From a virus: 43,398 nt of DNA. Position numbers and translations under genes: made by a program. Where the stretch lies: positions 1 through 43,398 of the IMG/VR virus record IMGVR_UViG_3300025128_000093; one strand, given 5' to 3'. Every line of letters begins with the position of its first letter. The stretch's first letter is position 1. Of this stretch, positions 2,916 to 34,927 are shown in pieces. The notes below the pieces were generated by a model, which made no database searches, was not told the DNA's origin, and was given only the letters and a program-made list of their open reading frames with translations.

Positions 2916-3860
2916 ATGGCTAACACTACCTCTGGTTCTTATGTTTTTGATAAGAACCTTGGAATAGATGAGATTATTGAAGATGCATACGAACGTATTG
3001 GTATGCAGAGTGTTTCTGGTTATCAGTTAAAAACTGCTAAAAGATCTTTAAATATTTTATTTTCCGAATGGGGAAATAGAGGATTACATTTTTGGGAAGT
3101 TAAAAATCAAAATGTAACTTTAGTAGATGGTCAAGCAGTATATACATTTTTTAGATCACCATCCGACGGTACTTCGGATGGTATCAGCACAACTTTATCT
3201 GCAGGTATAAATGCAACTGTAACAACTATTGGTGTTGCTTCAGTTACCGGACTGCCTACAACCGGCGGTACTATAAAAATTAATAATGAACAAATTACTT
3301 ACAGTGGTGTATCTAGTTTAAATTTAACTGGATGTGTCAGAGGTGTTAACGGAAGCACAGCTGCTACACACAGCAGTGGTGATACTGTTCTACAGTTTCC
3401 AAACGGAATGACTGATATACAAGAATTAAATTACAGGGTTGCATCTACAAATGTAGACACACCTATGACAAAAATTAGTAGATCGCAATATCAAGGGTTT
3501 TCTAATAAAACAAGTAAAGGTCTACCCACACAATATTGGGTTCAAAGATTTATTGATAAAACAACTGTTACTTTATATTTAACACCAGGTACTTCACAAG
3601 CTGGTGATTTTATAAATTTTTATTACACAAAAAGAATTGATGATGTAGGTGCTTATACAAATGCAACAGACGTGCCATATAGATTTGTGCCGTGTATGAT
3701 TGCAGGTTTATCATATTACTTAGCTGTAAAATATGCACCACCAAGAGTTCAAGAATTAAAATTATTATATGAAGACGAATTGTTAAGAGCTGAAGATGAA
3801 GACGGTTCTTCTAATTCTACATATATTTCACCTAAAATTTATTATCCGGGTATTGGTTAA
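2916..3860 (+). CDS. Neck/adaptor-like protein with inserted beta domain
   Basis: The 314-residue product begins with a helical adaptor-like region (IDEIIEDAYERIGMQ), as in phage head-tail adaptor proteins (SU10/T7 gp11-type). It then carries an inserted Thr/Gly-rich domain at about residues 91-161 with 'NEQITYSG' and 'GCVRGVNGSTAATH', and resumes with a C-terminal helical part. Related inserts occur in the proteins from 3860 and 13398. The stop overlaps the next start (TAATG). Likely joins portal to tail; recognised by eye. Confidence 0.55.
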   Translation: MANTTSGSYVFDKNLGIDEIIEDAYERIGMQSVSGYQLKTAKRSLNILFSEWGNRGLHFWEVKNQNVTLVDGQAVYTFFRSPSDGTSDGISTTLSAGINATVTTIGVASVTGLPTTGGTIKINNEQITYSGVSSLNLTGCVRGVNGSTAATHSSGDTVLQFPNGMTDIQELNYRVASTNVDTPMTKISRSQYQGFSNKTSKGLPTQYWVQRFIDKTTVTLYLTPGTSQAGDFINFYYTKRIDDVGAYTNATDVPYRFVPCMIAGLSYYLAVKYAPPRVQELKLLYEDELLRAEDEDGSSNSTYISPKIYYPGIG

Positions 3861-4681
3861 TGACAACTTTTTCACAAGGTAAATATGCTTTAGCGATTTC
3901 AGATAGATCTGGTATGGCTTTTCCATATAACGAAATGGTTAGAGAATGGAATGGTGCCCTGGTTCATGTTTCAGAGTACGAGCCTAAACAACCACAGTTA
4001 GATCCTAAACCAACAAGTGCTGACCCACAAGCTTTACAACATGCGAGAACTGCTAGAACAGAATTTCCAACAGAAGATTTTTTACCTGAAAATCCTTTTG
4101 TAACTGCATCTAACACTACATTAAAAATTAATTTTCCAAATGGTGCTTTACAAGTAAATGATTTTGTTAGATTTAGAGATGTTAAATCTCCGGTAGGTGG
4201 TGTAGCAGTTTCAACATTACAAATGTCTACTACTTTAAATGGGGCGATAACAGATAGCGATACTACAATTAACTTAACAGATGGTTCTGAATTTCCAACT
4301 TCTGGATTTATAGTAATTGAAAAAGTATTAACTCCTAATGATACAAGTGATCCATTACTTGTAGGACAATATAGAAACGAAGTTATAAAATATACAGGAA
4401 GATCTACAAATCAATTAACAGGCTGTACTAGAGGAACAAGTGCACCTTACAGAGGAACAGCTCCTGTACCTACAGTTGCTGGATCTCATTCTAATTTAGC
4501 AAAAGTTTTTGGTGGTTATAAAGTTGTTTCTTTAAATGAAACATCGGTTCCAGGTACAGGTCAACCATCTACAACTACACAATTTGACGGTATAAATATT
4601 ACACTAACTAACGCTGCATCAAGCACGGAAACAGGGGGTGGTTTTCAATGTACAATTGGACCCATAAATGATAGACCATAA
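3860..4681 (+). CDS. Putative neck/tail structural protein, 273 aa
   Basis: Starts at the ATG of TAATG, coupled to the previous gene. It has a Pro-rich linker at about residues 45-60 and a C-terminal beta-rich region. Within it, about residues 122-217, is a variant of the insert domain seen in its neighbours ('NEVIKYTG', 'LTGCTRGT'). No enzyme motif. Context between two adaptor-like genes supports a neck or head-completion role (inference). Confidence 0.5.
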   Translation: MTTFSQGKYALAISDRSGMAFPYNEMVREWNGALVHVSEYEPKQPQLDPKPTSADPQALQHARTARTEFPTEDFLPENPFVTASNTTLKINFPNGALQVNDFVRFRDVKSPVGGVAVSTLQMSTTLNGAITDSDTTINLTDGSEFPTSGFIVIEKVLTPNDTSDPLLVGQYRNEVIKYTGRSTNQLTGCTRGTSAPYRGTAPVPTVAGSHSNLAKVFGGYKVVSLNETSVPGTGQPSTTTQFDGINITLTNAASSTETGGGFQCTIGPINDRP

Positions 4682-4683
4682 TT

Positions 4684-5433
4684 ATGTCAGGAATTTCAAA
4701 ATATACATATACTACGTTAACTAATGCGATTAGGGATTACACAGAAGTAAGTTCAGATGTTTTATCTACAACTATTATAGATGGAATTATCATGGCAGCT
4801 GAAATGAGAATCAATCAAGAACTTCCAATGGACGCTGATAGAAAAGTTCAAGAGGGGACTTTAGTTGCAGATGATAATACGATTAATGCGCCAGCAGGTG
4901 CTTTATTTATAAGAGGTATAGAAGTTTTTGATTCTACAGCTAACACACAAGGAAAAGGAACTTGGTTAGAGAAAAAAGATCAAACCTATTTATCAGAATA
5001 TGTAGATAGATTAACAGGACCAGAAGGAGATTTGACTGCACAAGATGTAACCGGTCTTCCTAAATATTATGCTATGTTTGGTGGGGCAACTGGCACATCT
5101 AGCACAACATCTGGGGGTATGTATTTAGCTCCTACACCTGACGCAAATTATATGTTTAGAGTATATTATAATAAATATCCTACAGGATTAGGTTCTGGGA
5201 GTGATGGAAATTCAGAGACTTATTTAAGCACATATTTCCCACAAGGTTTGTTGTATGCTTGTTTGGTGGAGGCATATGGATTTTTAAAAGGTCCAATAGA
5301 TATGTTGACACTGTATGAAAATAAGTATAAAAATGCAATACAACAGTTCGCAGGAATGCAACTGGGTAGACGAAGACGAGACGATTATACTGACGGAACA
5401 GTTAGAATACCAGTTAAGTCACCGTCTCCATAA
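4684..5433 (+). CDS. Head-tail adaptor protein, SU10/T7 gp11-like
   Basis: A 249-residue protein. The N-terminal helices ('LTNAIRDYTEVSSDVL', 'IDGIIMAAEMRINQEL') and the C-terminal helix ending with a basic patch match the general pattern of podovirus adaptor or tail tubular A proteins that connect the portal to the nozzle. The nozzle-like gene is at 13398, and the halogenase cassette lies between adaptor and nozzle. Moderate confidence from motif pattern and position. Confidence 0.55.
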   Translation: MSGISKYTYTTLTNAIRDYTEVSSDVLSTTIIDGIIMAAEMRINQELPMDADRKVQEGTLVADDNTINAPAGALFIRGIEVFDSTANTQGKGTWLEKKDQTYLSEYVDRLTGPEGDLTAQDVTGLPKYYAMFGGATGTSSTTSGGMYLAPTPDANYMFRVYYNKYPTGLGSGSDGNSETYLSTYFPQGLLYACLVEAYGFLKGPIDMLTLYENKYKNAIQQFAGMQLGRRRRDDYTDGTVRIPVKSPSP

Positions 5434-5449
5434 ATAAGGAGAAAAAATT

Positions 5450-5890
5450 ATGGCAATAACATCGGCAATATGTAACAGTTTTAAAAACGAACTTATGACT
5501 GCGACTCATAACTTTACAGCGTCTACAGGAAACACTTTTAAAATTGCATTATATACAAGTTCTGCAACTCTAAGTGCATCAACTACTGCTTACTCTACAT
5601 CAAATGAAATCACTAACTCTTCTGGATCTGCTTACACTGCAGGCGGAAAAGCTTTAACAAACATTACTCCATCTTTAGATGGATCAACAGCTTGTGCTGA
5701 TTTTGATGACGTTAGTTTTACGTCAGCATCATTCACAGCGAATGGATGTTTAATCTACAATGACACTGCAACAGGTGATCCTGCTGTTTGTGCAGTAGCT
5801 TTTGGTGGAGACAAAACAGTTTCAAGTGGAACTTTTACTATTCAATTCCCAGCTAAAGCAGCGACAACGGCTATAGTTAGAATAGCATAA
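5450..5890 (+). CDS. Putative virion protein, 146 aa
   Basis: TAAGGAG precedes the ATG. The product is Thr/Ser/Ala-rich and beta-strand-like, with 'FKIALYTSSATL' near residues 31-42, a pattern common in marine phage structural proteins of unknown role. It has few charged residues and no signal peptide. It belongs to the run of tail or fibre genes 4684-9678. The family name is not known to me. Confidence 0.55.
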   Translation: MAITSAICNSFKNELMTATHNFTASTGNTFKIALYTSSATLSASTTAYSTSNEITNSSGSAYTAGGKALTNITPSLDGSTACADFDDVSFTSASFTANGCLIYNDTATGDPAVCAVAFGGDKTVSSGTFTIQFPAKAATTAIVRIA

Positions 5891-5904
5891 GGAGGTAAAT
5901 CCTT

Positions 5905-6930
5905 ATGGCATCTATCTGGGGTGGTGATAGTCCTTCAGTAGCCTGGGGAGAAAACTCCTGGCAATCTAATACTGTTACAATTACTTTAACTGGTCAATCA
6001 GCAACTACTTCAGTTGGTTCTATAACAGCTTTCAACCAAAACGGTTGGGGTGGAGCTCAATGGGGTAATGATGGTTGGGGTGTAAACTTTGCTGTCGCTT
6101 TAACTGCACCTGCTGGTTTAAGCACATCATTAGGATCTTTAATTGCTGAACAATTTATAGAAGCTCCTATAACTGCACCTACTAATTTAACATCTTCATT
6201 AGGATCTTTAACAACAACTCAACTTTCAATTGCAGATTTAACGGCTCCAAGTCAAATGACTTCTCAAGTCGGAGACTTTGATAATGCCGGTACGTTAGTT
6301 GGTTGGGGTAGAAATGGTTGGGGTGAAGAACCTTACGGAGACTCATTTAATAAATTAGTTCAATTAACTGCATTACCAGTAGCAACAGCAAGTGTTGGAT
6401 CTTTGTTACCTGCGGACGTCGTAGGACTAACTGCACCTAGTGCAGCAACATCTAATGTTGGATCTATTAATTTAGAATTTTCATATGTACCAAGTGGACA
6501 ATCAGCAACAGCAAGTGTTGGAGCAATTGTATCTGGTATAGGTGTTCCATTAACAGGAGTATCAGCAACATCTAGTGTAGGCTCTATTAATTTAGAATTT
6601 GCATATGTACCAAGTGGACAATCAGCAACAGTAAGTGTTGGAGAAATAGAAGTAACAGAGGTATTAATAATTAGAATTGGTCTTGATGGTGTGGATACAC
6701 CAGCTGTTTTAAATTCTGCAGTTGGAGCTATTATTCCAGAAATAGGCGTTCCATTAACAGGAGTATCAGCAACGTCTGCAGTTGGATCAATTGCACCTGA
6801 AGATGTTATGGGATTAACAGGGGTTGAAGCAACCGCAGAAATAGGTACAACTGGCTTTGGAACAATAGGTTACAAAGATATTGACATAACTGGCAATACA
6901 TCTTATACAGATGTAAATCATGCTGCTTAA
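5905..6930 (+). CDS. Repetitive Trp-Gly-rich tail protein
   Basis: GGAGG precedes the ATG. The 341 residues contain about ten imperfect repeats of roughly 20-30 residues with the core 'LTG.SAT.SVGSI' or 'LTAP...TS.LGSL'. Two Trp-rich patches stand out: residues 1-60 and about 132-145, with eight Trp in all, seven of them in WG dipeptides (IWGG, AWGE, GWGG, QWGN, GWGV, GWGR, GWGE). A repetitive beta fibre or spike is likely. The Trp patches make it a speculative substrate for the halogenase encoded 5 kb downstream. Confidence 0.6.
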   Translation: MASIWGGDSPSVAWGENSWQSNTVTITLTGQSATTSVGSITAFNQNGWGGAQWGNDGWGVNFAVALTAPAGLSTSLGSLIAEQFIEAPITAPTNLTSSLGSLTTTQLSIADLTAPSQMTSQVGDFDNAGTLVGWGRNGWGEEPYGDSFNKLVQLTALPVATASVGSLLPADVVGLTAPSAATSNVGSINLEFSYVPSGQSATASVGAIVSGIGVPLTGVSATSSVGSINLEFAYVPSGQSATVSVGEIEVTEVLIIRIGLDGVDTPAVLNSAVGAIIPEIGVPLTGVSATSAVGSIAPEDVMGLTGVEATAEIGTTGFGTIGYKDIDITGNTSYTDVNHAA

Positions 6931-6950
6931 TTGATTAAGGAGAAAATAAT

Positions 6951-8336
6951 ATGGCATCAACATTTACAGCGCTTGGCGTAGAATTAATGGCAACCGGTGA
7001 AAATGCCGGTACTTGGGGAACAAAAACAAATACTAATTTAAATATCATCGAGCAAATTGCTGGTGGTTTTACTGCTCAATCGATAGCAGGTGGTGCACAA
7101 ACTACAGCTTTATCAGTTTCTGATGGATCAACTGGTGCTGTAATGTCTCACAGAATGATTGAGTTTACAGGTTCAATTACTGGAAACCAAATCGTAACAA
7201 TTCCTTTAGATGCACAAACTTTTTATTTTTTAAGAAATTCAACATCTGGTGCTTACACAGTACAATTTAAATATACTTCAGGATCTGGAGACAGTTTTAC
7301 TTTTTCAGCAACTGATAAAGGTGATCAACTTGTGTTTGCTACAGCAAACGATGGAACTAACCCAGACATTTACACTCTAGATTTTGGTGATGTAACTCTT
7401 ACTGGAACTCAAACTTTAACAAACAAAACTTTAACTAGTCCTAAAATTGGAACTTCAATTTTAGATACTAACGGAAATGAACTTTCAAAAGTTACAGCTA
7501 CAGGTTCTGCGGTAAACGAATTTACTATAGCAAATGCTGCTACAGGTAATGCACCAGCATTATCAGCTACTGGTGATGATTCAAATATAGACATTGCTTT
7601 AATACCAAAAGGAACTGGTGAAACTAAAGTTGGAACAGGAGCAGCAAATGCCACTATAACTTCAAGTGGTGCACACGATTTAATATTAGACACAAATTCA
7701 GGAACAAACTCTGGAACAATTACAATTACAGATGCAGCTAATGGTAATATTACTATTGCTCCAAACGGAACTGGTGTTGCTCAAGCAGTAGATGCTGGAG
7801 ATAACACGGCTGCAATTAAGATTGCAGGTAAAGAAACTATTTGGGTGCCTTCAAGTGCAATGTACCCTAACAGTACAAACGGTGCAGAAGCTGCACAAGT
7901 AGAATTATCAAATGGTCCAGAGCTTAAAGTTTTAGATTTTGATAAAGACTCTGATGAGTTTGCACAGTTTGCTGTTGCATTTCCTAAATCATGGAATGCA
8001 GGCACAGTAACTTTTCAAGCGTTTTTTACAGCTACTTCAACAGATACAGGTACAAGTGCATATGTTTTACAAGGTGTTGCATTAGCAGATAATGGCGATC
8101 TTAACACCGCTTTTGGAACAGCAGTTGGACCAACAGCAAAAGCTATGAGTGGAACATCAAACGATTTAGCAGTTACAGCAGAAAGTGGAGCAGTAACAAT
8201 CGCAGGATCACCTGGTGACGATGAGTATGTTTTTTTCCAAGTGTCAAGAGATGTATCAGCTGATGACCTAAATGCTGATTCAAGATTATTAGGAATTAAA
8301 TTATTCTTCACTACTGATTTAGCTAACGACGCATAA
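6951..8336 (+). CDS. Tail fibre-like protein, 461 aa
   Basis: TAAGGAG precedes the ATG. The N-terminal half carries 'TLTGTQTLTNKTLTSPKIGT' (around residues 150-170), a hallmark of marine phage fibre proteins, followed by Gly/Thr/Asn-rich repeats of the 'TSSGAHDLILDTN' type. The C-terminal third (from about residue 300) is a different, more globular domain that could be the tip or receptor-binding part. No catalytic residues are recognisable. Confidence 0.65.
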   Translation: MASTFTALGVELMATGENAGTWGTKTNTNLNIIEQIAGGFTAQSIAGGAQTTALSVSDGSTGAVMSHRMIEFTGSITGNQIVTIPLDAQTFYFLRNSTSGAYTVQFKYTSGSGDSFTFSATDKGDQLVFATANDGTNPDIYTLDFGDVTLTGTQTLTNKTLTSPKIGTSILDTNGNELSKVTATGSAVNEFTIANAATGNAPALSATGDDSNIDIALIPKGTGETKVGTGAANATITSSGAHDLILDTNSGTNSGTITITDAANGNITIAPNGTGVAQAVDAGDNTAAIKIAGKETIWVPSSAMYPNSTNGAEAAQVELSNGPELKVLDFDKDSDEFAQFAVAFPKSWNAGTVTFQAFFTATSTDTGTSAYVLQGVALADNGDLNTAFGTAVGPTAKAMSGTSNDLAVTAESGAVTIAGSPGDDEYVFFQVSRDVSADDLNADSRLLGIKLFFTTDLANDA

Positions 8337-8347
8337 TAGGAGTTAGA

Positions 8348-9208
8348 ATGTTTGGATACAGATTATTAGGTTTCGGATCTGGAGGAGCACCAAAAGATTA
8401 CACTATGGAATATGTTCTTGTCGCTGGCGGAGGCGGTGGTGGCACCGACGATGGCGGCGGAGGCGGTGGCGGAGGCTACAGGTCTTCTGTACAAGGAGAA
8501 AATTCAGGTCGAGGAGACTCAGCATTATCAGTAATAGAAGCAGTCGAAGGAACTACTTACACAGTAACTGTTGGTGGTGCTGGTGGAGCTGGACAGGGTG
8601 ATAACATTCGAGGTGGTAACGGTGGAACTACATCTCTTTCAGGATCAGGTATTTCAACTGTTTCATGCACTGGCGGAGGCGGCGGTGGCTCTTGGAACAG
8701 AGGAGCTAATAGCGGTGGCTGCGGTGGTGGATCAGGAAGTGGCGGAGGCCGTGGTTCAAGTAATGGTTCAGGTTCGAGTGGTCAAGGTTTTGATGGTTCA
8801 GGTGGTGGATCAGGTACTTCTGGAGGCGGCGGTGGCGGCGGTGCATCTACAGGACAATCTGCAACTGGTGGTCATGGAACAGACTCATCTATCACAGGAA
8901 GCTCAGTCGGAAGAGGCGGCGGAGGCGGCGGTGGAGCTGGTCAAGGCGGCGGTGGATCAGGTTCAGGTCGTGATGGCGGCGGTAGCGGTTCAACTGGAAC
9001 TGGTGGCGGCGGAAGTTCTAATACAGGCGGAGGCGGTGGAGGTGTAAAAACTGATAACCGTAGTGCAGGAGCTGGAGGATCAGGAGTTGGAATTTTAAGA
9101 GTATTTACAAATGTATATTCAGGAGTTACATCAGGCTCACCTACTGTTACAACAGATGGTGATTACACTATTATGACATTTAACGGATCAGGGAGTTACA
9201 CACCATAA
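8348..9208 (+). CDS. Polyglycine-rich adhesin
   Basis: The 286-residue protein is mostly Gly and Ser between residues 25 and 240, with runs of up to eight Gly interrupted by short variable segments (YRSSVQGENSGRGDS, SWNRGANSGGC). It ends with a beta-type cap ('VGILRVFTNVYSG'). T4-like gp38 adhesins use stacked polyglycine II helices with variable loops for receptor recognition; the composition suggests the same idea here. Codons in the Gly tracts use GGC/GGA/GGT, giving a local G+C-rich island. The stop overlaps the next gene by TAATG. Confidence 0.65.
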   Translation: MFGYRLLGFGSGGAPKDYTMEYVLVAGGGGGGTDDGGGGGGGGYRSSVQGENSGRGDSALSVIEAVEGTTYTVTVGGAGGAGQGDNIRGGNGGTTSLSGSGISTVSCTGGGGGGSWNRGANSGGCGGGSGSGGGRGSSNGSGSSGQGFDGSGGGSGTSGGGGGGGASTGQSATGGHGTDSSITGSSVGRGGGGGGGAGQGGGGSGSGRDGGGSGSTGTGGGGSSNTGGGGGGVKTDNRSAGAGGSGVGILRVFTNVYSGVTSGSPTVTTDGDYTIMTFNGSGSYTP

Positions 9209-9678
9209 TGGCACATTTTGCAAAATTAGACAATAATAATATTGTAACTCAAATTGAAGTTGTTAATGACGAAGTTATTACTGATAGCAACGGTAATGAG
9301 CAAGAATCATTAGGAGTTGATTTTTTAAGAAATCTTTATAACGAACCAGATGCTGTATGGAAACAAACTTCATACAACACTAGTGGTAATATATACTATA
9401 CACCTGGAGGAGATTTTGAATCCTCTAATGTAGACCCTGATCAAAGCAAAGCTTTCAGAGGAAACTATGCAAAAATAGAGGGGCACTACGATCCTGCTAA
9501 TGATGTATTTTATGATGGACAACCACATGCATCTTGGGTTTTAGATACTTCTTCTTGGATTTGGGAGGCACCAAATCCTCCTGGAAAAAAACCACAAGAT
9601 GGAAAATCATATCTTTGGGACGAAGATGCTTATCAAGCTGATAATTCAACTGGTTGGATTGAAAAGATTAACGACTAG
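9208..9678 (+). CDS. Tail-fibre-associated protein, 156 aa
   Basis: Coupled to the adhesin gene by TAATG. The N-terminus 'MAHFAKLDNNNIVTQIEVV' and the Trp/Pro-rich C-terminus ('WVLDTSSWIWEAPNPPG') resemble a small protein that accompanies fibre genes in many marine phages, including T4-like cyanophages, from memory. It is the last gene before the terminator at 9686 and hence closes this half of the structural operon. Function unknown; probably a virion component or fibre chaperone. Confidence 0.6.
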   Translation: MAHFAKLDNNNIVTQIEVVNDEVITDSNGNEQESLGVDFLRNLYNEPDAVWKQTSYNTSGNIYYTPGGDFESSNVDPDQSKAFRGNYAKIEGHYDPANDVFYDGQPHASWVLDTSSWIWEAPNPPGKKPQDGKSYLWDEDAYQADNSTGWIEKIND

Positions 9679-9685
9679 CACTTGT

Positions 9686-9711
9686 ATTATACTTAAAATA
9701 GTATAATTTTT
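9686..9711 (+). terminator. Intrinsic terminator before halogenase cassette
   Basis: ATTATACT, a 6-base loop, AGTATAAT, then a run of five T. The stem is A+T-rich but perfect (8 bp) and lies 8 bases after the stop of the fibre-associated gene. The 3' arm also contains a perfect TATAAT (9702-9707), so the site could double as a -10 element for the cassette; no good -35 is visible. Confidence 0.65.
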
Positions 9712-9732
9712 ACTTAAATTACAGAAATAAAA

Positions 9733-10281
9733 ATGATTATCAATATTTTTTCAATTCCTATATTTATTGGTAATATTAATGCTAGTAAAATTAAATTCAT
9801 AAAAAAGATAAAGACCGAAGATACTTGGTTATCTAAAACTCCAAGCTCTTATAATGTTGATAATCCTGACTCTATAATAGATAAAAAAACTATAAAATTT
9901 ATATTGCAAACATTTGCCGATGAATTAACTCAAGTTGTTTCTGGAACGTTTGAGTTAAGATTAAAAAATATTTGGGAAAATAATTATAGGACTGAAGACT
10001 ACCAAGAACCACACATTCATACAGGTTCGGATTTATCTTTTATAATTTATAAAGATGTTGAAGAATCAAAAACAGTTTTTTTAAACCCAGCTAAAAATAT
10101 AATAGAGTGTTTTAAAAATATGAGTTCTAGAGCAATTTCTGTTTTTTCTAAAGAAGTCTATAAACCTACATTAAGATCTAATCAATTTGTATTATTTCCT
10201 AGTTATTTAGAACATATGGTTGTAAAACCAAATAAGCGTCAGTCTACAATTGCTGGTAATATAAGAATGGTAATAAAATGA
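9733..10281 (+). CDS. 2OG-Fe(II) oxygenase-like protein (TIGR02466-type)
   Basis: The 182-residue protein fits the double-stranded beta-helix pattern of the TIGR02466/2OG-FeII_Oxy_5 group. It has H94-I-H96 in 'EPHIHTGSDLSF', then 'FVLFPSYLEHMVVKP' with H161, then R169 and the 'AGNIRMV' strand. Such proteins are expected to bind Fe(II) and 2-oxoglutarate and hydroxylate a substrate. The HxH in place of HxD is common in this group but leaves activity unproven. First gene of the cassette; weak ribosome-binding site; overlaps the next gene by ATGA. Confidence 0.6.
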   Translation: MIINIFSIPIFIGNINASKIKFIKKIKTEDTWLSKTPSSYNVDNPDSIIDKKTIKFILQTFADELTQVVSGTFELRLKNIWENNYRTEDYQEPHIHTGSDLSFIIYKDVEESKTVFLNPAKNIIECFKNMSSRAISVFSKEVYKPTLRSNQFVLFPSYLEHMVVKPNKRQSTIAGNIRMVIK

Positions 10282-10763
10282 AAACAGAACAAGATTTTTT
10301 AATGAAGGAAATTTTCAATAATATTAAAAATAATATTATCCATGATAATTTCTTTCCATGGTTCTTAAAAGAAAAGTTAAATGAAAATCAAGAAAATTCA
10401 GCTTTAGATAGTTACTTTACACATTCATTTTATTTAAATAATAATATAAATAGTGATAAGTTTAATTTAATTAAACCTTTGATAGAGAAACTAAAAGCAA
10501 AAGCTTTATTGAGAGTAGTAGCTAATTTTTATTATAGAACAGATAAAATTGTAGAACATCCTATGCATTGTGATTATCAGTTTCCACATAAAGGGGCTTT
10601 GCTTTCTTTAAACACTTGTGATGGGTTTACTATTTTAGAAGATGGCACTAGAGTTCCTTCTGTAGAAAACCAACTTCTACATTTAGCTACAGATAAACCC
10701 CATGCTAGTACAAGCACTACAAATGCAAAAGGTAGATTTAATATTATAGTTAATTATTTTTAA
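10278..10763 (+). CDS. 2OG-Fe(II) oxygenase (prolyl-4-hydroxylase-like fold)
   Basis: A 161-residue protein with the full facial-triad pattern: H97-C-D99 in 'HPMHCDYQFP', H142 in 'DKPHASTST', and R153 for the 2-oxoglutarate carboxylate in 'GRFNIIVNYF'. The product should hydroxylate or otherwise oxidise a peptide or small molecule using 2-oxoglutarate and O2. It starts within the previous gene's stop (ATGA) and ends directly against the next ATG, so the genes are almost certainly co-translated. Substrate unknown. Confidence 0.65.
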   Translation: MKTEQDFLMKEIFNNIKNNIIHDNFFPWFLKEKLNENQENSALDSYFTHSFYLNNNINSDKFNLIKPLIEKLKAKALLRVVANFYYRTDKIVEHPMHCDYQFPHKGALLSLNTCDGFTILEDGTRVPSVENQLLHLATDKPHASTSTTNAKGRFNIIVNYF

Positions 10764-11405
10764 ATGACTTTTAAGCACTGTACATTATTTGGTATGCCTG
10801 TATTTGAAGATGAAATAAATCCTGAACGTTATAATAAAAAACAGTTAATAAAAGATATTAAATATAACTATAAAATATCTAAACAACGTGGTTCAGGTTT
10901 TGGTAAATGGCATGATTCATATGAATGCACAGATGAAAGGTTTAAAAAAATACAAAGCGATGAATTAGTAAAGATATATATTGAAAAACTAAAAGCATTT
11001 TGTGTTAACCATCTTAATATCAAAAAAGATTGTGCGATTAACATACAAATTATTAATTACACTTGTAATAAAGAAGATGCTTTTATGACTCCTCATATGC
11101 ATCTTGGTGCAGATTTTGGTTTGGTACACTATCTTCAAGTCCCTAAAGAATCGTCTCCTATAAGATTTAGTAATCAAAATTCATTTGGTAAATTTTTTAA
11201 TTTTTTAAGACCAGACTTATACGATCTAGTGGATAGTGATAAATACATTAATTCATGGATGTTTGAATATTTTTCAATCAATCCCTTACCCGACAGTATA
11301 CTATTATTTCCTGCAGTGATGATGCATGAGGTTCCTTTTCAAAAACAAGTAATGAAAGATGAAAGAATCAGTATTGTTGCTAATGTAAAAATTGAAAAAG
11401 TATGA
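10764..11405 (+). CDS. 2OG-Fe(II) oxygenase-like protein (TIGR02466-type), 213 aa
   Basis: It shares the layout of the first cassette protein: N-terminal 'LFGMPVFEDEI', then H111-M-H113 in 'TPHMHLGADFGL', a long loop, and 'ILLFPAVMMHEVPF' with H188, followed by R201 in 'DERISIVANV'. The two genes could be ancient duplicates, though they have diverged strongly. It abuts its upstream neighbour with no gap and overlaps the next by ATGA. An Fe-dependent oxygenase role is family-based; the substrate is unknown. Confidence 0.6.
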   Translation: MTFKHCTLFGMPVFEDEINPERYNKKQLIKDIKYNYKISKQRGSGFGKWHDSYECTDERFKKIQSDELVKIYIEKLKAFCVNHLNIKKDCAINIQIINYTCNKEDAFMTPHMHLGADFGLVHYLQVPKESSPIRFSNQNSFGKFFNFLRPDLYDLVDSDKYINSWMFEYFSINPLPDSILLFPAVMMHEVPFQKQVMKDERISIVANVKIEKV

Positions 11406-11890
11406 TAAAAATATTTGACCATGGTATTGACCAAAATTCTCAATTAGAAATACATAAAGAATTATCTAATTTAAATTATGAACACGGAGAGTCTGATTAT
11501 GAAGGTGCTGAAATAATTGGGTTGAGTTGTGAGTTAAATAAAAACACTTTAAGTTTTAAAATATTAAATAATATTTTAAAAATGATTAAAGAGTTAGATG
11601 GATTAAATTTAGTAAGAACTTATGTAAATAAATTTGAACCTGAAGATAAACCTTTGTTTCATATAGATAGTCTTGATGGAGGAATTACTGCTTTATATTA
11701 TGCAAATGATAAAGAGGAAAATATAGATGAACTTGGCGGAACTCAATTTTATTTAAAAGACATTGAAGAAATAAAAGAAGTATTAAATATACCTGGTAGA
11801 ATAATAATTTTTGATGGTGGAATTAGACATAGAGCTACCAGTTTTAGAAATAAAACACGTTATACTATTGCATTTAAATATGAAAAATAA
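11402..11890 (+). CDS. 2OG-Fe(II) oxygenase, 162 aa
   Basis: Clear PKHD/P4H-type core: H87-I-D89 in 'LFHIDSLDGG', 'ALYYAND', 'GGTQFYLKD', 'PGRIIIFDGG', H143 in 'IRHRATSF', and R153 in 'KTRYTIAF'. All Fe(II) ligands and the 2-oxoglutarate-binding Arg are in place, so this is the most convincing oxygenase of the cassette. It overlaps the halogenase gene by 11 bases, implying translational coupling of the two enzymes. Confidence 0.75.
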   Translation: MIKIFDHGIDQNSQLEIHKELSNLNYEHGESDYEGAEIIGLSCELNKNTLSFKILNNILKMIKELDGLNLVRTYVNKFEPEDKPLFHIDSLDGGITALYYANDKEENIDELGGTQFYLKDIEEIKEVLNIPGRIIIFDGGIRHRATSFRNKTRYTIAFKYEK

Positions 11891-13058
11891 AGCAATAAAA
11901 CATTTAGTAATTGTTGGTGGTGGTTCTTCTGCCATGCTAGCTGCTGCATATATTAGAGCTCATACTAATTATGATATTACAATGGTTGATAGACCTGACG
12001 GTAAACCTATAGGAGTTGGTGAAGCTACTATTTTAAATTTTGAACCATACATGCAAGCATGTGGATTTCCTTATCAAGAATGGTTTGATTATTGCGATGC
12101 TACTATTAAAACAGGTATTTTATTTTCTGGTTGGGGTAATAAAAAACATAGTCCTGATTTATGGCATCCATTTATAGAGGGTAGAAGTATGGAAGATTTT
12201 TATGATAATGATGAAAGAGGTTATCATATAGATTGTTTAAAATTAGCCAAATACATTGAAGAAAAATTAAAAGATAAAGTTAATTGGGTAAAAGATAATG
12301 TAATTAAATTAGACGGAGATACTTTAATTTGTGAAAATAAAAAAATAAAAGCTGACTTATTTATTGATTGTACAGGTTTTAGGTCTATGCTGCAAAAAGA
12401 AAAAACAGTTAATCTAAGAGACAGATTAATTTGTGATACTGCAATAGCAGGTCCAGTCGAATATAAAGATGATTCAGAAAGATTACACTACACTACATGT
12501 CACGCTGTTTCATGTGGTTGGATTTGGAAAACTCCTGTAAGAAGTAGAATAGGAAGTGGTATTATATTTAATAGATCAATTACAAAACCTAAAGAAGCTA
12601 AAAAAATATTTTTAGAACATTGGGATAATAGACCTAAAATAGCCAAAGAAATTAACTGGACTCCATATTATAAAAATACTTTTTGGAAAAATAATGTAGT
12701 AAGAATTGGATTAGCTAGTGGATTTATAGAACCTTTAGAAAGCACAGGCTTAGCTTTAGCTATGGAAGGAGCTTATCAATTAGTGGCAACTACTAGAGAT
12801 AATAATTACAACCAGAATTCTATAGATTTATACAATAGTGTTATTAAACATTTTTATGAAGATGCGATTAATTTTATATCCCTTCATTATAATTTAAATA
12901 ATAGAAAAGAAAAATTTTGGAAAGATGCTAAAAAATTAGCTATATCAAATGCACAAAAGTATTATGCCAAAATGGATAATCCTAAACAGTACCCTCATTC
13001 TAATTATAGTTTTTTTAACCAACCTAATTGGTTGTGTTTATTAGACCAACTTAAATGA
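11880..13058 (+). CDS. Flavin-dependent tryptophan-halogenase-like protein
   Basis: A 392-residue protein with the flavin-dependent halogenase signature set: FAD-binding 'VIVGGG' (residues 10-15, GGGSSA in place of the usual GGGTAG), 'GVGEAT' (45-50), K77 in 'ATIKTGILFSGW' (equivalent to PrnA Lys79), 'DCTGFRSML' (163-171), 'GWIWKTP' (213-219, the WxWxIP block with Thr for Ile), and 'GFIEPLESTG' (281-290) with E287 matching PrnA Glu346. It would use FADH2, O2 and halide to make HOX and halogenate an aromatic substrate. It is shorter than PrnA/RebH (about 530), losing mostly substrate-pocket regions. No flavin reductase is nearby. The ATG at 11880 is chosen over an upstream in-frame start inside the oxygenase gene. 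Confidence 0.85.
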   Translation: MKNKAIKHLVIVGGGSSAMLAAAYIRAHTNYDITMVDRPDGKPIGVGEATILNFEPYMQACGFPYQEWFDYCDATIKTGILFSGWGNKKHSPDLWHPFIEGRSMEDFYDNDERGYHIDCLKLAKYIEEKLKDKVNWVKDNVIKLDGDTLICENKKIKADLFIDCTGFRSMLQKEKTVNLRDRLICDTAIAGPVEYKDDSERLHYTTCHAVSCGWIWKTPVRSRIGSGIIFNRSITKPKEAKKIFLEHWDNRPKIAKEINWTPYYKNTFWKNNVVRIGLASGFIEPLESTGLALAMEGAYQLVATTRDNNYNQNSIDLYNSVIKHFYEDAINFISLHYNLNNRKEKFWKDAKKLAISNAQKYYAKMDNPKQYPHSNYSFFNQPNWLCLLDQLK

Positions 13059-13375
13059 AATTTCTAAAACATCTTACAGATGTTTCCTTTGCAACAGATA
13101 TTCAAAAACAAAAAGAGCTGTGGGACGTAGAAGGAGTATTAAAAATACGTTCTAATCAAAGATTTAAGTTTGATTTACGGCCTTTAATTAATTTTATGAA
13201 AAAAGGTTCTACTAAAACTAGGGCCGATAAGATGGTTGTAGATATAAATAATCAATGGATTATAATAGATATTCCAGAATTACATCAATATTTAAAAGAA
13301 AATAAAATCAAAAAAGTTCATTTAGAAGATTTGATATCCAATTTAGATTGGAATATAATACTACCAAAAAATTAA
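13055..13375 (+). CDS. Unknown cassette protein, 106 aa
   Basis: Starts inside the halogenase stop (ATGA), so it belongs to the same operon. The protein is basic and mixed alpha/beta: 'VLKIRSNQRFKFDLRPLINFMKK' then 'KMVVDINNQWIIIDIPELHQYLKENKIKKVH'. No signal peptide, zinc ligands or flavin motif. It could be a substrate-recognition or partner protein for the halogenase; this rests only on operon position. It is followed by 22 bases and then the tail nozzle gene. Confidence 0.6.
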   Translation: MKFLKHLTDVSFATDIQKQKELWDVEGVLKIRSNQRFKFDLRPLINFMKKGSTKTRADKMVVDINNQWIIIDIPELHQYLKENKIKKVHLEDLISNLDWNIILPKN

Positions 13376-13397
13376 AAACCATATATAAGTAGAGATT

Positions 13398-15578
13398 ATG
13401 CTACAAAAACTAGGTTTTTTACCAGGATTCAATAAACAAGTTACTGAGACCGGGGCCGAGGGCCAATGGTTTGATGGTGACAATGTTCGTTTTAGATATG
13501 GCACACCAGAAAAGATAGGTGGCTGGGAGCAGTTAGGTGAAAATAAACTAACAGGAGCAGCAAGAGCCATTCATCAATTTGAAAATAATAACAGTCTTAA
13601 GTATTCTGCCATAGGCACAAACAAAATTTTATATGTTTATGTTGGTGGTCAGTATTATGATATTCATCCTATTCGAACAACTTTAACTGGAGCTAATTTT
13701 ACAAGCACTGCTTCATCTACGACTGTTACAGTAACATGCACCGGGACTCATGGATTATTAGAAGATGATATTGTTTTATTTGATAGTGTAACAGGATTAA
13801 GCGGATCTACATTTACCAACGCAACTTTTGAAGATGTAAAATTTATGGTTGCTTCAGTTCCAAGTGCAACTACATTTACAATTACTATGAACACTGCAGA
13901 GGCAGGAACTCCTGTAACAAATGGTGGGTCAGCTTCTGTTTTATGTTATTACAATGTCGGTCCCTCTCAACAACTAGGTGGTTTTGGATGGGGAGCAGGT
14001 AACTGGAGCGGTCAAACCAGTGGAGCAGCAACTACTACTCTTGCTACAGCGTTAACTGATACCACTACTACAAACATAGTTTTAACCAGCACTTCAGCTT
14101 TTCCATCATCGGGAGAAATTAGAATTGATAATGAAGATATAAGTTACACATCGAATGACACCGGCACCAACACTTTAAGTGGAGGGGCAAGAGGAGTTAA
14201 TGGAACGACCGCAGCTACACATACTTTAGGTACTACGGTTACAGATATTTCTGAATTCGTTGCATGGGGAGAATCTTCAACAGCTCAAGACTTTACTATT
14301 GACCCTGGATTATGGATTTTAGATAACTACGGTCAAAAACTAATAGCACTTATTTACAATGGTCCTTGTTTTGAATGGGATGGAGCTCCAACAAATGCTG
14401 TTAACGTCAGAGCAACTCTTTTACCTAACGCACCTACGGCGTCGCGACATGTCTTAGTATCTACACCAGATAGACACTTAGTATTTTTTGGCACAGAAAC
14501 AACAGTAGGTAATAGTGCTACTCAAGACGATATGTTTATTAGATTCTCTGACCAAGAAAGTATTGATGAAGCAGACTCTTATACTGTAACTGCAAACAAT
14601 ACCGCAGGTACACAGAGACTGGCCGATGGATCAAGAATTATGGGAGCTATTAAAGGTAGGGACGCTATTTATATTTGGACTGATACAGCATTATTTTTAA
14701 TGCAGTTTGTTGGTGCGCCTTTTACTTTTTCTTTTCAACAAGTAGGTACAAACTGTGGACTCATAGGTAAGAATGCTTGTGTAGAAGTAGATGGTAAAGC
14801 TTATTGGATGTCAGAAAATGGTTTCTTTACTTATGATGGACAATTAAAATCATTACCTTGTCTAGTAGAAGATTTTGTATATGACGATATTAATACTACA
14901 GCAAGAGATTTAATAAACTGTGGTTTAAATAATTTATTTGGAGAAATTAATTGGTTTTATTGTACTTCTGCATCTAACATAATTAATAAAGTAGTTACAT
15001 ATAACTATCTAGACTCGAATGCTAATAGACCTATTTGGACAACTGGCACATTAGCAAGAACAGCGTGGGAAGATTCTGCCTTGTTTGGTAAACCACATGC
15101 AACTTTTTATGATTCATCTAGCAATAGTTCTTATGATGTTGTTGGTAATACCGATGGCTGTACAACATACTATGAGCATGAAACAGGGACCGATCAAGTG
15201 GACGCCGGCGGAGCTGTTACAGCTATAATAGCAAACATAGCTTCTGGTGATTTTGATATTACACAACGTAGAAGCAGCACAGGACAGACAGTAGGTATGC
15301 CAGATTTAAGAGGAGACGGAGAATTCATAATGAGGATAAGCAGATTTATACCAGATTTTATAGATCAAACAGGGACAACAGCTATTAAATTTAAAACAAG
15401 ATTGTATCCAAATAGCACACAAGTTACCAATAGTTTTAATTGTACTTCCTCTACAACAAAAAAAGATGTAAGAGTAAGAGCACGACAAATTGCATTAGAA
15501 GTTGCAAATACAGGTGCAAATGAAGACTGGAAGTTAGGAACTTTTAGATTAGATATATCACCAGGAGGAAGAAGATAA
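13398..15578 (+). CDS. Tail nozzle-like protein (T7 gp12/tail tubular B-like)
   Basis: The 726-residue protein starts 'MLQKLGFLPGFNKQVTETGA', contains 'NVRFRYGTPEKIGGWEQL', and later beta-propeller-like segments ('HLVFFGTE', 'MFIRFSDQESI', 'GRDAIYIWTDTALFLMQF'). This is the layout of the large nozzle protein of marine podoviruses. An insert domain at about residues 211-284 ('NEDISYTS', 'GGARGVNGTTAATH') resembles those in the neck proteins encoded at 2916 and 3860. The gene resumes the structural operon after the halogenase cassette; its stop overlaps the next start (TAATG). Confidence 0.65.
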   Translation: MLQKLGFLPGFNKQVTETGAEGQWFDGDNVRFRYGTPEKIGGWEQLGENKLTGAARAIHQFENNNSLKYSAIGTNKILYVYVGGQYYDIHPIRTTLTGANFTSTASSTTVTVTCTGTHGLLEDDIVLFDSVTGLSGSTFTNATFEDVKFMVASVPSATTFTITMNTAEAGTPVTNGGSASVLCYYNVGPSQQLGGFGWGAGNWSGQTSGAATTTLATALTDTTTTNIVLTSTSAFPSSGEIRIDNEDISYTSNDTGTNTLSGGARGVNGTTAATHTLGTTVTDISEFVAWGESSTAQDFTIDPGLWILDNYGQKLIALIYNGPCFEWDGAPTNAVNVRATLLPNAPTASRHVLVSTPDRHLVFFGTETTVGNSATQDDMFIRFSDQESIDEADSYTVTANNTAGTQRLADGSRIMGAIKGRDAIYIWTDTALFLMQFVGAPFTFSFQQVGTNCGLIGKNACVEVDGKAYWMSENGFFTYDGQLKSLPCLVEDFVYDDINTTARDLINCGLNNLFGEINWFYCTSASNIINKVVTYNYLDSNANRPIWTTGTLARTAWEDSALFGKPHATFYDSSSNSSYDVVGNTDGCTTYYEHETGTDQVDAGGAVTAIIANIASGDFDITQRRSSTGQTVGMPDLRGDGEFIMRISRFIPDFIDQTGTTAIKFKTRLYPNSTQVTNSFNCTSSTTKKDVRVRARQIALEVANTGANEDWKLGTFRLDISPGGRR

Positions 15579-32415: not shown

Positions 32416-34268
32416 AGATACCTACCTTTAGCGCACAAACAGAATGGGTTATACCTAAAGAATTTCCTGACCTAAGACAGGTTGACGAAATTGCAATTGA
32501 CTTAGAGACAAAAGACCCAGACTTAATTAAAAAGGGATCTGGATCTATAATAGGTAATGGAGAAGTTATAGGAATAGCTGTAGCAACTGCACATTACAAA
32601 GGATACTTTCCTATTGCACATGAAGGTGGTGGTAACATGGATCGTAATAAAGTTTTAGAATGGTTTCAAGATATTCTTAAAACAGATTCTACAAAAATAT
32701 TTCACAATGCAATGTATGATGTGTGTTGGATAAGAGCTATGGGTCTAACAATTAATGGTATGATTGTTGACACAATGATAGCGGCAGCTGTGACTGATGA
32801 AAATAGATTTAGATATGATCTCAATAGTTTGTCATGGAAGTATTTAGGTTTTGGTAAAAACGAAGCAGCACTTGCGGAGGCAGCAGCTGAGTGGGGTATA
32901 GATCCAAAATCTGAAATGTATAAACTGCCATCACTAAATGTTGGTAGCTATGCTGAAAGAGATGCAGAAGCAACGTATGGTTTGTGGCAAGAGATGAAAA
33001 AAGAAATTATAGCACAAGACCTACAATCTATTATGGAGTTAGAAACAGATTTATTTCCATGTCTGGTTGACATGAGATTCAAAGGTGTACGTGTAGATGT
33101 AGAGAGAGCACACTCACTAAAAAAAGAATTAATCAATGAAGAGAATGGTTTATTAAATGCAATTGAAAAAGAAACTAATGTACGTCCACAGATATGGGCG
33201 GCAAGTAGTATAGCAGATGTATTTGAAAATTTAAAAATACCATTTGAAAGAACAGAAAAAACACAAGCACCATCATTTACAAAAAACTTTTTACAAGAAC
33301 ACAAGCACCCTGTTGTAAATATGATTGCAAAGGCAAGAGAAGTAAACAAAGCGCATACAACTTTTATAGATTCTATTCTTAGATACGAACACAAAGGTAG
33401 AATTCACGCAGAGATAAATCAATTAAGAAACGCTGGGGGTGGCACGGTTACTGGTAGGTTCTCCTACCAGAATCCAAATCTACAACAGATACCTGCACGT
33501 AACAAAGACTTAGGTCCTAAAATAAGATCTTTATTTATACCAGAAGAAGGTTGTAAGTGGGGAGTCTTTGACTATTCACAACAAGAGCCTCGTCTTGTTG
33601 TACACTACGCAGCATTATATAAACTACCATCAGTGTATGATGTAGTTGATTCTTATGAATCAGATCCTAACGCAGACTTTCACCAAACTGTAGCAGACAT
33701 GGCAGAGATACCAAGAACACAAGCTAAAACAATTAACCTAGGATTATTTTATGGTATGGGTAAAGCTAAACTACAAGCAGAGTTAGGTGTTAGTAAAGAC
33801 AAAGCTGCAGATTTATTTAATACGTATCACGCAAAAGTACCGTTTGTAAAACAACTAATGGACAAAGCATCTAACAGAGCGCAAGACAGAGGCCAGATAA
33901 GAACTTTACTTGGCAGACTATGTAGGTTTCACTTGTGGGAACCAAACAGTTTCGGTATGCATAAAGCTATGACACATGAAGATGCGTTGGCGGAACACGG
34001 ACCAGGGATAAAAAGAGCATATACTTATAAAGCATTGAACAAATTAATTCAAGGTAGTGCAGCAGACATGACAAAAAAATCTATGTTAGAATTATATAAA
34101 GAAGGAATTATACCGCATATTCAAATACACGATGAATTAGATCTATCAATAGAGAATGACGCACAGGCAAAAAAGATAATTGAAATTATGGAACATGCTG
34201 TTAGTCTGGAAGTACCAAACAAAGTTGATTATGAATGGGGAGAAAATTGGGGGGAAATAAATAGTTAA
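32412..34268 (+). CDS. DNA polymerase I family A with 3'-5' exonuclease
   Basis: A 618-residue replicative polymerase. The exonuclease domain keeps D30-x-E32 ('IAIDLET'), D103 ('FHNAMYDVCW') and Y180/D184 ('SYAERDAEATYGL'), so proofreading should be active. Polymerase motif A 'FDYSQQEPRLVVH' (D387), motif B 'RTQAKTINLGLFYGMG', motif C 'IHDELDLS' (H573-D574-E575). The residue equivalent to E. coli Phe762 is Leu443. No 5'-3' exonuclease domain. ATGA overlap upstream, TAATG overlap downstream. Confidence 0.95.
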   Translation: MKIPTFSAQTEWVIPKEFPDLRQVDEIAIDLETKDPDLIKKGSGSIIGNGEVIGIAVATAHYKGYFPIAHEGGGNMDRNKVLEWFQDILKTDSTKIFHNAMYDVCWIRAMGLTINGMIVDTMIAAAVTDENRFRYDLNSLSWKYLGFGKNEAALAEAAAEWGIDPKSEMYKLPSLNVGSYAERDAEATYGLWQEMKKEIIAQDLQSIMELETDLFPCLVDMRFKGVRVDVERAHSLKKELINEENGLLNAIEKETNVRPQIWAASSIADVFENLKIPFERTEKTQAPSFTKNFLQEHKHPVVNMIAKAREVNKAHTTFIDSILRYEHKGRIHAEINQLRNAGGGTVTGRFSYQNPNLQQIPARNKDLGPKIRSLFIPEEGCKWGVFDYSQQEPRLVVHYAALYKLPSVYDVVDSYESDPNADFHQTVADMAEIPRTQAKTINLGLFYGMGKAKLQAELGVSKDKAADLFNTYHAKVPFVKQLMDKASNRAQDRGQIRTLLGRLCRFHLWEPNSFGMHKAMTHEDALAEHGPGIKRAYTYKALNKLIQGSAADMTKKSMLELYKEGIIPHIQIHDELDLSIENDAQAKKIIEIMEHAVSLEVPNKVDYEWGENWGEINS

Positions 34269-34927
34269 TGGCTTATTTAAATGCAAACATACCTGTCATA
34301 GAATGTTATGTCAGAGGTAATTACTTAAGAGATCAAAAAGATTCACACGATAAATATTTTGAAGTAGGTGTATTTGGTTTTAGTTCTATACCAAACAGAG
34401 TACCTTTGTTTCATTTCCTAATGGAAGATGGGGGTCTATGGTGGCGAGCACCTATCTCAGCTTTCTGTACTAAACCAGGTGTAAAAGAATTACCACTGGA
34501 TGAATTAGTTATGTGGGACAGCTTTAGCTATAACGTAAGCGTCACAACTTTTTATGAGTTAGCTGGTGCAACAATGCAATACACATCAAGACGTAAAGTA
34601 AAACGTAAAGGCAAATATTTATTTACTATTGACTGGTGCGCAGGTGACTTCAATGAGTTAAATTTTGGTTATGCAGAGAAACCGGACCAGCATAAATGCG
34701 GTCATGTACTGCAATTAGAGGATGGAAACTTTGCAATACAGCCTAATAATAGGCTTAAAATGTTTGATGCATCAATGGGTGTAGACCCATCAAAAAACTT
34801 GATTAACAGACTTGTTACAAGTAAGATATACTCCGTAGAAAACTCAGCTAAATGGATAACTGATGAACATGAAGAAGGCAGTTATGACTATCAGTTGAGA
34901 AACTTGGAGGAAGACAATGATAAATAA
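34268..34927 (+). CDS. Hypothetical protein downstream of polymerase, 219 aa
   Basis: TAATG-coupled to the polymerase gene. The protein starts 'MAYLNANIPVIECYVRGNYL' and has a Trp/Phe-rich N-terminal half ('HFLMEDGGLWWRAPISAF', 'LDELVMWDSFSYN'), a Cys/His-containing middle and an acidic C-terminus (DEHEEGSYDYQLRNLEEDN). Proteins like it commonly follow polA in related marine phages (from memory), suggesting a replication-linked role. No motif allows a function to be named. Confidence 0.65.
   Translation: MAYLNANIPVIECYVRGNYLRDQKDSHDKYFEVGVFGFSSIPNRVPLFHFLMEDGGLWWRAPISAFCTKPGVKELPLDELVMWDSFSYNVSVTTFYELAGATMQYTSRRKVKRKGKYLFTIDWCAGDFNELNFGYAEKPDQHKCGHVLQLEDGNFAIQPNNRLKMFDASMGVDPSKNLINRLVTSKIYSVENSAKWITDEHEEGSYDYQLRNLEEDNDK

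Follow-up and report, generated by a model that had tools for sequence, protein, structure and literature searches.

2-Oxoglutarate (2OG)-Fe(II) oxygenases count among the 'auxiliary metabolic genes' (AMGs) often reported from marine phages and have been read as tools for host metabolism. In the HTVC023P-type pelagiphages (HTVC023P, HTVC027P and the 023Pt genomes), where 2OG genes lie beside fibre genes, they were treated as AMGs partnered with a 'ferrochelatase' gene that is often nearby, not adjacent, in a study whose main text mentions neither a halogenase nor the tail fibre (PMC9599517). Hypervariable fibre regions that differ between near-identical phages, as in the window studied here, are known as metaviromic islands or host-recognition clusters; the passages available from the two papers describing them list Fe(II) oxygenases with the inferred role 'host recognition' and do not mention coupled oxygenase arrays, joint exchange of enzymes and fibre, a halogenase or the c6 protein described below (PMC3909814, PMC7029224). 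The precedent named in the original prediction, single halogenases and scattered 2OG oxygenases in marine phages, is understated, as cyanophage S-SSM7, Sf-CH11 and pelagiphage HTVC008M already pair both beside structural genes. In particular, cyanophage Sf-CH11 resembles the present layout, with the order structural gene, GspG-like, 2OG, 2OG, halogenase, 2OG, 2OG-like and LamG.

The window comprises 43,398 nucleotides (IMG/VR record IMGVR_UViG_3300025128_000093, positions 1 to 43,398), and the kin of its source phage are marine viruses allied to the most common SAR11 viruses. Its tail gene order is that of the HTVC023P-type phages, to whose nozzle proteins its own is 42–45% identical, and HTVC023P and 023Pt_psg01 also encode the fibre-linked protein C (Table 1). 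A DNA search of the whole region against the phage collection gave no match. The six cassette ORFs were recovered in the predicted order, with overlaps of 4, 0, 4, 11 and 4 bases, so that an overlap or abutment at every junction bears out one tightly packed unit, and profile matches confirmed four oxygenase-like genes and one flavin halogenase-like gene. The start of the latter was taken as the ATG at 11880, the mechanical ORF beginning with TTG at 11811.

Table 1 Features of the fibre-to-nozzle region of the window
Feature	Position	Strand	Supporting match or remark
Fibre/adaptor-like gene (6951-8336), variable 3' half	7622..8336	+	Left limit of region replaced between close relatives
B, Gly-rich fibre/adhesin-like (Gly_rich_2-like)	8348..9208	+	PF21722 1.5e-4, below cut-off; phrog_2295 8e-23
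C, Trp-rich fibre-linked protein, constant slot partner	9208..9678	+	phrog_7759 4.6e-35
c1, 2OG-Fe(II) oxygenase-like	9733..10281	+	PF13759; HxH...H...R motif
c2, 2OG-Fe(II) oxygenase-like	10278..10763	+	phrog_274; HCD...H...R
c3, 2OG-Fe(II) oxygenase-like	10764..11405	+	PF13759; HxH
c4, 2OG-Fe(II) oxygenase-like	11402..11890	+	PF13640; FlmC-type (NCBIfam); HID...H...R
Flavin-dependent halogenase-like, short form, 392 aa	11880..13058	+	PF04820; PDB PrnA, VirX1, others
c6, 106 aa, new virus-restricted family	13055..13375	+	234 viral hits
Recurrent exchange boundary just upstream of nozzle start	13359..13398	+	Breakpoints 13359 (vs L005), 13381 (vs L013)
Nozzle/packaged-DNA stabilisation tail protein, conserved right flank	13398..15578	+	phrog_3287 3e-92; relatives annotated 'stabilization protein'

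The slot between the Gly-rich fibre gene with C (8348–9678) and the nozzle gene (13398) is hypervariable. Among nozzle-matched contigs, counted only with at least 1.5 kb of upstream sequence (n = 60), 59 carry 2OG genes within 3 kb upstream of the nozzle gene. Arrays contain up to eight recognised 2OG genes and sometimes halogenases, carbamoyltransferases, sulfotransferases and DUF6445 proteins, and coupling is general, with 133 overlaps and 42 gaps of 0–10 bp at 178 array junctions. By position the cassette does interrupt the run from fibre to nozzle genes, but no empty slot was seen among the nozzle-matched relatives. The pairing of halogenase and 2OG oxygenases recurs (out of 80 viral halogenase loci, 48 lie within 6 kb of a 2OG gene and 29 are directly adjacent to one), and halogenases arrived in the slot in several separate lineages. 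Judged by the refutation test of the original prediction, the six genes are neither fixed in all relatives nor generally scattered, but the gene-for-gene combination is rare. The cassette is a single variant of the contents of this hypervariable slot; the fixed multi-step tailoring pathway proposed earlier was rejected because relatives hold different gene sets at this position.

Pairwise comparisons define the unit that is exchanged. The closest relative (L013, nozzle 96% identical) shares DNA with the window at 2917–7621 and from 13381 onwards and nothing in 7622–13380. A distant phage (L005, nozzle about 35% identical) shares only 8383–13359, which spans the fibre gene B, C and the cassette, at 84.7% DNA identity and with the exact six-gene set intact. 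The same pattern was found for L005/L242, L053/L077, L163/L254, L100/L101 and L096/L100, and the right-hand boundary near the nozzle start recurs in other pairs. The exchanged unit therefore consists of the Gly-rich fibre B, C, the enzyme array and c6, with its right breakpoint just upstream of the nozzle gene; the cassette is packed as a unit, but the travelling unit also holds the Gly-rich fibre and C, which had been left outside it. The six genes are under purifying selection (dN/dS 0.08–0.55; halogenase 0.076).

Across 45 dereplicated loci, array sharing followed the identity of C (Mantel r 0.61, p 0.0002) and not that of the nozzle (r 0.03, p 0.26). The association with C (r 0.52, p 0.0005) rather than with the nozzle (r 0.07, p 0.10) holds even for the pair of array genes closest to the nozzle gene, and 19 of 50 pairs with nozzles at least 85% identical share no array gene. 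Thus, the array is inherited with its fibre partner C and not with the tail backbone. The content of the region varies between near-identical phages and is linked to fibre and receptor-binding genes, as in a hypervariable host-recognition island, and the enzymes move together with a protein that is a candidate substrate, as in a post-translational tailoring system. Block exchange between conserved flanks can also carry neighbours that do not work together, and C adjoins fibre genes that have no annotated oxygenase nearby in HTVC025P and Bellamy. In the alignment of C, R84 and W150 are invariant and S109, W110 and W137 nearly so.

These inheritance data bear on the standing reading of phage 2OG genes as auxiliary metabolism (PMC3037559), by which the enzymes would produce or alter some diffusible metabolite, or would deplete 2-oxoglutarate and so shift nitrogen signalling in the host, a role proposed in cyanophages. 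The 2OG genes of HTVC023P-type phages have been read as 'partner AMGs' (PMC9599517), and VirX1 accepts diverse substrates, according to the title of a paper cited in PMC10452541. This reading leaves unexplained the linkage to fibre type, the presence of as many as eight divergent oxygenases in a single slot and their rapid replacement between near-identical phages, and we consider it improbable.

The cassette oxygenase-like genes match curated models of the 2OG-Fe(II) superfamily. Both c1 and c3 match PF13759 above cut-off (7.2e-9 and 7.9e-8), c4 matches PF13640 (9.3e-5, below cut-off) and the NCBIfam FlmC-type 2OG model (1e-14, below that model's own cut-off), and c2 is assigned through phrog_274 only (1e-38). 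The latter is named 'DNA endonuclease V' in PHROGs; the remaining members in this data set match Pfam models of 2OG oxygenases, and on these matches the name is a misnomer. Of 111 diverse array ORFs, which are 11–24% identical to c4, 45 match PF13640 and 37 match PF13759, and two His residues are at least 90% conserved. The iron triad HxD/E...H and the distal Arg are present in c2 and c4, while c1 and c3 carry HxH instead of HxD/E; two uncharacterised structures, 3bvc and 2rg4, also show HxH in the alignments obtained. The motif including the distal Arg, the expected 2-oxoglutarate ligand, is kept in 202 of 219 ORFs compared to 53 of 219 after shuffling, and a control for HMM drift gave no match in 409 downstream ORFs or 466 shuffled ORFs. 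The best characterised PDB relatives of the array profile are prolyl-4-hydroxylases, EGLN1 and PKHD enzymes, which are largely protein hydroxylases; they are the nearest characterised solved structures, albeit at very low identity and with HxD where c1 and c3 have HxH. We regard c1–c4 as 2OG-Fe(II)-oxygenase-like proteins and predicted enzymes.

The conserved motif also speaks to whether these double-stranded beta-helix proteins could instead be iron-binding virion parts of the Ferrojan-horse type. Their genes belong to the tail module, 'minor coat protein' is the name of a PHROG matched by some array ORFs, and iron in tails has been discussed for HTVC027P (PMC12753301); retention of the distal Arg and the genuine halogenase, sulfotransferase and carbamoyltransferase genes of the arrays make a non-enzymatic role very improbable. 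Hypermodification of DNA or nucleotides by a 2OG oxygenase/carbamoyltransferase route, to which TET-like enzymes, ranked low among the PDB matches of the array profile, and the carbamoyltransferases of some arrays could point, is similarly remote, given that the profile is closer to prolyl hydroxylases and that many oxygenases per slot lie beside, and are co-inherited with, fibre genes.

The halogenase-like protein matches PF04820 with an E-value of 7.7e-74 (249.6 bits against a cut-off of 21) and phrog_2928 with 6e-91. With PrnA, RebH and the viral VirX1 (PDB 6qgm) it has in common the family match, the catalytic Lys and Glu and the GWxWxxP motif. Its K77 and E287, invariant in nine aligned sequences, are the counterparts of the catalytic PrnA residues K79 and E346, and the short-form clade has the same Lys/Glu motifs. 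The motif GxGxxG reads GGGSSA (last Gly to Ala), and WxWxIP reads GWIWKTP (Ile to Thr). At 392 aa it shows gaps against all longer homologues and is ~130 aa shorter than PrnA and VirX1 (~530 aa), with a shortened middle and without the C-terminal substrate module; unlike the genes of this comparison set, it is located within an oxygenase array. Its matches to QhpG, LodB and GoxB, a related flavoprotein family, are far weaker than those to the halogenase family (NCBIfam, 3e-9 at best). By sequence it is a short-form relative rather than a canonical Trp halogenase, with predicted halogenase activity. QhpG, LodB and GoxB are flavoprotein maturases that act on peptidyl Trp (PMC7876137).

Collectively, these data suggest a fibre-linked battery that completes the chemistry of the fibre or of the cell surface recognised by it. 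Our preferred explanation, held at a little under an even chance, is that the cassette supplies the enzymes of an exchangeable host-recognition module and tailors fibre proteins. The array, as one coupled operon, and the fibre genes would be translated after infection; the oxygenases would use Fe(II), 2-oxoglutarate and O2 to hydroxylate side chains of the fibre or C proteins, and the halogenase, supplied with FADH2 by a flavin reductase of the host and with seawater chloride, bromide or iodide, would halogenate an exposed aromatic residue. Such modification could alter the receptor chemistry or stability of the fibre tip, so that each fibre type would need its own enzyme set. The Trp content of C and of the Gly-rich protein does not rise in halogenase-bearing slots, no residue of C or fibre, including Trp and Tyr, was convincingly enriched with the halogenase after correction for 16 tests, and a literature search for phage fibre hydroxylation found nothing relevant.

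The most likely targets, we infer, are fibre proteins, or else host surface glycans. Tailoring of host-surface glycans or lipids during infection, for receptor masking, superinfection exclusion or release from debris, would fit the co-inheritance with C equally well, enzymes and fibre travelling together since each is matched to the same receptor. The carbamoyltransferases and sulfotransferases of the arrays also belong to glycan-tailoring families, and the halogenase and 2OG genes of cyanophage S-SSM7 lie with genes for a sugar kinase, nucleotidyltransferase, phosphoheptose isomerase and epimerase, a neighbourhood that points to glycans and against a fibre-protein target. Pelagimyophage host-recognition clusters carry glycosyltransferases that have been proposed to change the O-chain (PMC7029224). 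We nevertheless judge this alternative rather unlikely, as no glycosyltransferase was found among the classified array genes and most relatives of the array profile hydroxylate peptidyl residues. A further point against it is that the electron-rich aromatic groups on which flavin halogenases act are rare in surface glycans.

A broader form of the fibre-tailoring reading, possible but doubtful, is a self-contained fibre-chemistry system, by which abundant marine podoviruses would vary receptor binding through swappable enzymes that decorate the fibre tip and not through sequence alone. The battery would comprise oxygenases, halogenases, carbamoyl- and sulfotransferases inherited with the fibre, and c6 would be an accessory or mobility factor. 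If fibre hydroxylation or halogenation is true, enzymatic chemistry joins recombination and mutation as a source of receptor-binding variation, and the PHROG labels 'DNA endonuclease V' and 'ferrochelatase' used in ecological studies need correction.

Two further features of the original prediction concerned base composition and transcription. The cassette is A+T-rich (25–29% GC compared to 35–52% in neighbouring genes), but the difference is absent from GC3 (0.10–0.18 compared to 0.13–0.23 in the flanks), so the low GC stems from the composition of the proteins rather than from foreign codon usage. A foreign origin was rejected because GC3 is alike and because each of the 45 comparable arrays exceeds its own nozzle gene in A+T content. 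The intrinsic terminator placed before the cassette did not hold up, as none was called in 9679–9732, where the only candidate is an A/T-only 8-bp hairpin (z = -0.45 relative to shuffles).

The last cassette gene, c6, had no convincing sequence relative in Pfam, PHROG, NCBIfam or the PDB, was not found among isolated phage records and represents a new virus-restricted family, whose members usually form the last gene upstream of the nozzle. Its AF2 model (pLDDT 85) gave a weak Foldseek match to RecU-like/PD-(D/E)XK-like proteins; the canonical D...ExK was not recognised in the c6 alignment. Possible roles are assistance in assembly or, as a nuclease-fold protein, promotion of the exchange. Outside viruses the family gave four hits, all in one Maricaulis MAG.

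All six ORFs at 9733–13375 of the window, their order and their junctions (4, 0, 4, 11 and 4 bases) are exactly as in the original prediction. Its four oxygenase-like genes, c1–c4, were also borne out: c1 and c3 belong to PF13759, c4 is PF13640-like with an NCBIfam match to FlmC-type 2OG oxygenases (1e-14), and c2 falls in phrog_274, of which the members examined here behave as 2OG oxygenases despite the PHROGs label "DNA endonuclease V". The fifth gene is halogenase-like, as proposed (PF04820, 7.7e-74); its relatives include PrnA, RebH and VirX1, and it encodes a short form of 392 aa in which the catalytic Lys and Glu are conserved. The A+T richness ascribed to the block holds for its overall composition (25–29% GC), but GC3 equals that of the flanks, and the supposed intrinsic terminator before it is a hairpin built solely of A and T that does not outperform shuffled sequence. 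Both phrog_274 and phrog_2297 (window c2 and c4) carry a "DNA endonuclease V/DNA endonuclease" label on proteins that look like 2OG oxygenases. Outside the slot, the variable stretch before the nozzle gene, a fifth 2OG-Fe(II) oxygenase gene (37808–38503) is directly followed by a weak PD-(D/E)XK-like ORF (38504–38863), and the PHROG "ferredoxin" label (phrog_3704) at 34268–34927 is doubtful, the protein matching no Pfam family at E ≤ 0.01.

The nozzle protein, used as query against viral contigs, identified 80 loci, nearly all with a packed array of small genes directly 5′ of the nozzle gene. These genes mostly have no or weak BLAST similarity to those of the window, even where the nozzle is 96% identical. 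Iterated profiles seeded with c1–c4 and the fifth 2OG gene matched 317 of 466 upstream ORFs, compared with 0 of 409 downstream and 0 of 466 shuffled ORFs, and showed most array genes to encode predicted, divergent 2OG-oxygenase-like proteins. In an independent check against Pfam, 45 of 111 array ORFs matched PF13640 and 37 matched PF13759; the array ORFs are only 11–24% identical to c4, yet two His are at least 90% conserved. Of the 60 contigs that extend 1.5 kb or more upstream, 59 have a 2OG gene within 3 kb of the nozzle gene, a figure restricted to nozzle-scan loci because those found via c6 or halogenases are biased towards these genes. Every one of 66 distinct complete slot configurations has 2OG genes; the one count of zero arises where the array sits between the Gly-rich gene and C, the Trp-rich fibre-linked protein. 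Most often the Gly-rich gene comes first, followed by C, the array, c6 and the nozzle gene. Arrays also contain halogenases, carbamoyltransferases, sulfotransferases, cupin/JmjC-like and DUF6445 proteins; one (L101) combines two halogenases, one sulfotransferase and several 2OG genes. In another (L063, 3654–5117), consecutive sulfotransferase, APS-kinase-like and cytidylyltransferase-like genes are possibly a phage-borne sulfation kit. The array is wholly or partly inverted relative to the tail genes in L096, L098, L100, L025, L199, L202, L226 and HTVC027P (gp72–gp74, L088). Upstream of the nozzle gene, the near-identical contig L002 (also L012 and L176) has ~122 extra bases near the c3 start, and its c3 ORF is longer (254 versus 213 aa), reflecting a natural indel or an assembly error.

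Pairwise alignments delimit what is exchanged. Against L013 (nozzle 96%), DNA aligns at 2917–7621 and from 13381 onward with nothing between; against L005 (nozzle ~35%), only 8383–13359 aligns (84.7%), and the flank of L005 itself matches L242 at 88%. The pairs L053/L077, L163/L254 and L100/L101 have this right-hand boundary too. These limits indicate that one block moves, made up of the fibre 3′ part, Gly-rich gene, C, array and c6. In 45 dereplicated loci, the more similar C is, the more of the array is shared (r 0.61, p 0.0002), whereas nozzle identity shows no such correlation (r 0.03, p 0.26), and even the two nozzle-abutting array genes track C (r 0.52) rather than the nozzle (r 0.07, p 0.10). 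We are confident that fibre, C and enzyme array form one exchanged module. Proximity alone could explain block exchange, but does not by itself predict a 2OG array in essentially every slot. Between the window and L005, dN/dS is 0.08–0.55 for the eight genes of the module, indicating purifying selection on each of them. Their dS is uneven (~0.2 for c4 and the halogenase, 0.7–1.0 for c1–c3 and c6), thus exchange occurs inside the module as well.

The sixth ORF, c6, represents a new virus-restricted family, with 234 matches among viral contigs, none in isolated phages and four in one Maricaulis MAG. Its AF2 model (pLDDT 85) weakly resembles RecU-type PD-(D/E)XK folds, but no catalytic motif was recognised in c6. 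We speculate that c6 may have a role in exchange at the adjoining breakpoint.

A 2OG gene lies within 6 kb of the halogenase in 48 of 80 viral halogenase loci and directly adjoins it in 29. In a quick tree with SH-aLRT support only, the window protein clusters with short forms of other fibre slots (L005, L101, L096/L098/L100); slot halogenases, counting any contig with a nozzle match, spread over several clades with at least six label changes, which argues for repeated recruitment into slots. Halogenase and 2OG genes likewise lie beside structural genes in cyanophage Sf-CH11 and pelagimyophage HTVC008M.

Module structure, co-inheritance, enzyme families and motif conservation are established here; as to the substrate, we infer, tentatively, that the enzymes tailor fibre proteins. 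This reading ranks first because of the linkage to fibre type, because most of the characterised structures closest to the array profile are of peptidyl hydroxylases, and because the wider flavoprotein family of the halogenase includes peptidyl Trp maturases (PMC7876137). Against it, neither C nor the Gly-rich protein carries a residue signature of halogenase presence, and in S-SSM7 the halogenase and 2OG genes are grouped with carbamoyltransferase and sugar-nucleotide genes, a context that favours tailoring of the host surface, which we place second and consider rather unlikely. A role in general metabolism, ranked third, is improbable.

We found no prior description of the coupled array, the array–fibre exchange or c6 in the open-access literature searched. 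The 2010 cyanomyovirus comparison (PMC3037559) proposed 2OG/nitrogen effects, the metaviromic-islands paper (PMC3909814) enters Fe(II) oxygenases of fibre islands under host recognition, and Wittmers et al. (PMC9599517) treat 2OG genes as AMGs that are partnered with "ferrochelatase" in HTVC023P-type phages. Phage genes so annotated (phrog_2954/3531) have an HxD...H motif and 2OG profile matches of 1e-31 to 1e-6; four that were scanned gave no Pfam match of any kind, to a ferrochelatase domain or otherwise. The published partnership may be one between neighbouring 2OG genes.

"Ferrochelatase"-annotated, 2OG-like genes in other phages
Locus	Position	Strand
L089	8289-8906	
L090	10054-10707	
L093	2031-2672	(-)
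L094	11123-11701	
L257	9781-10422
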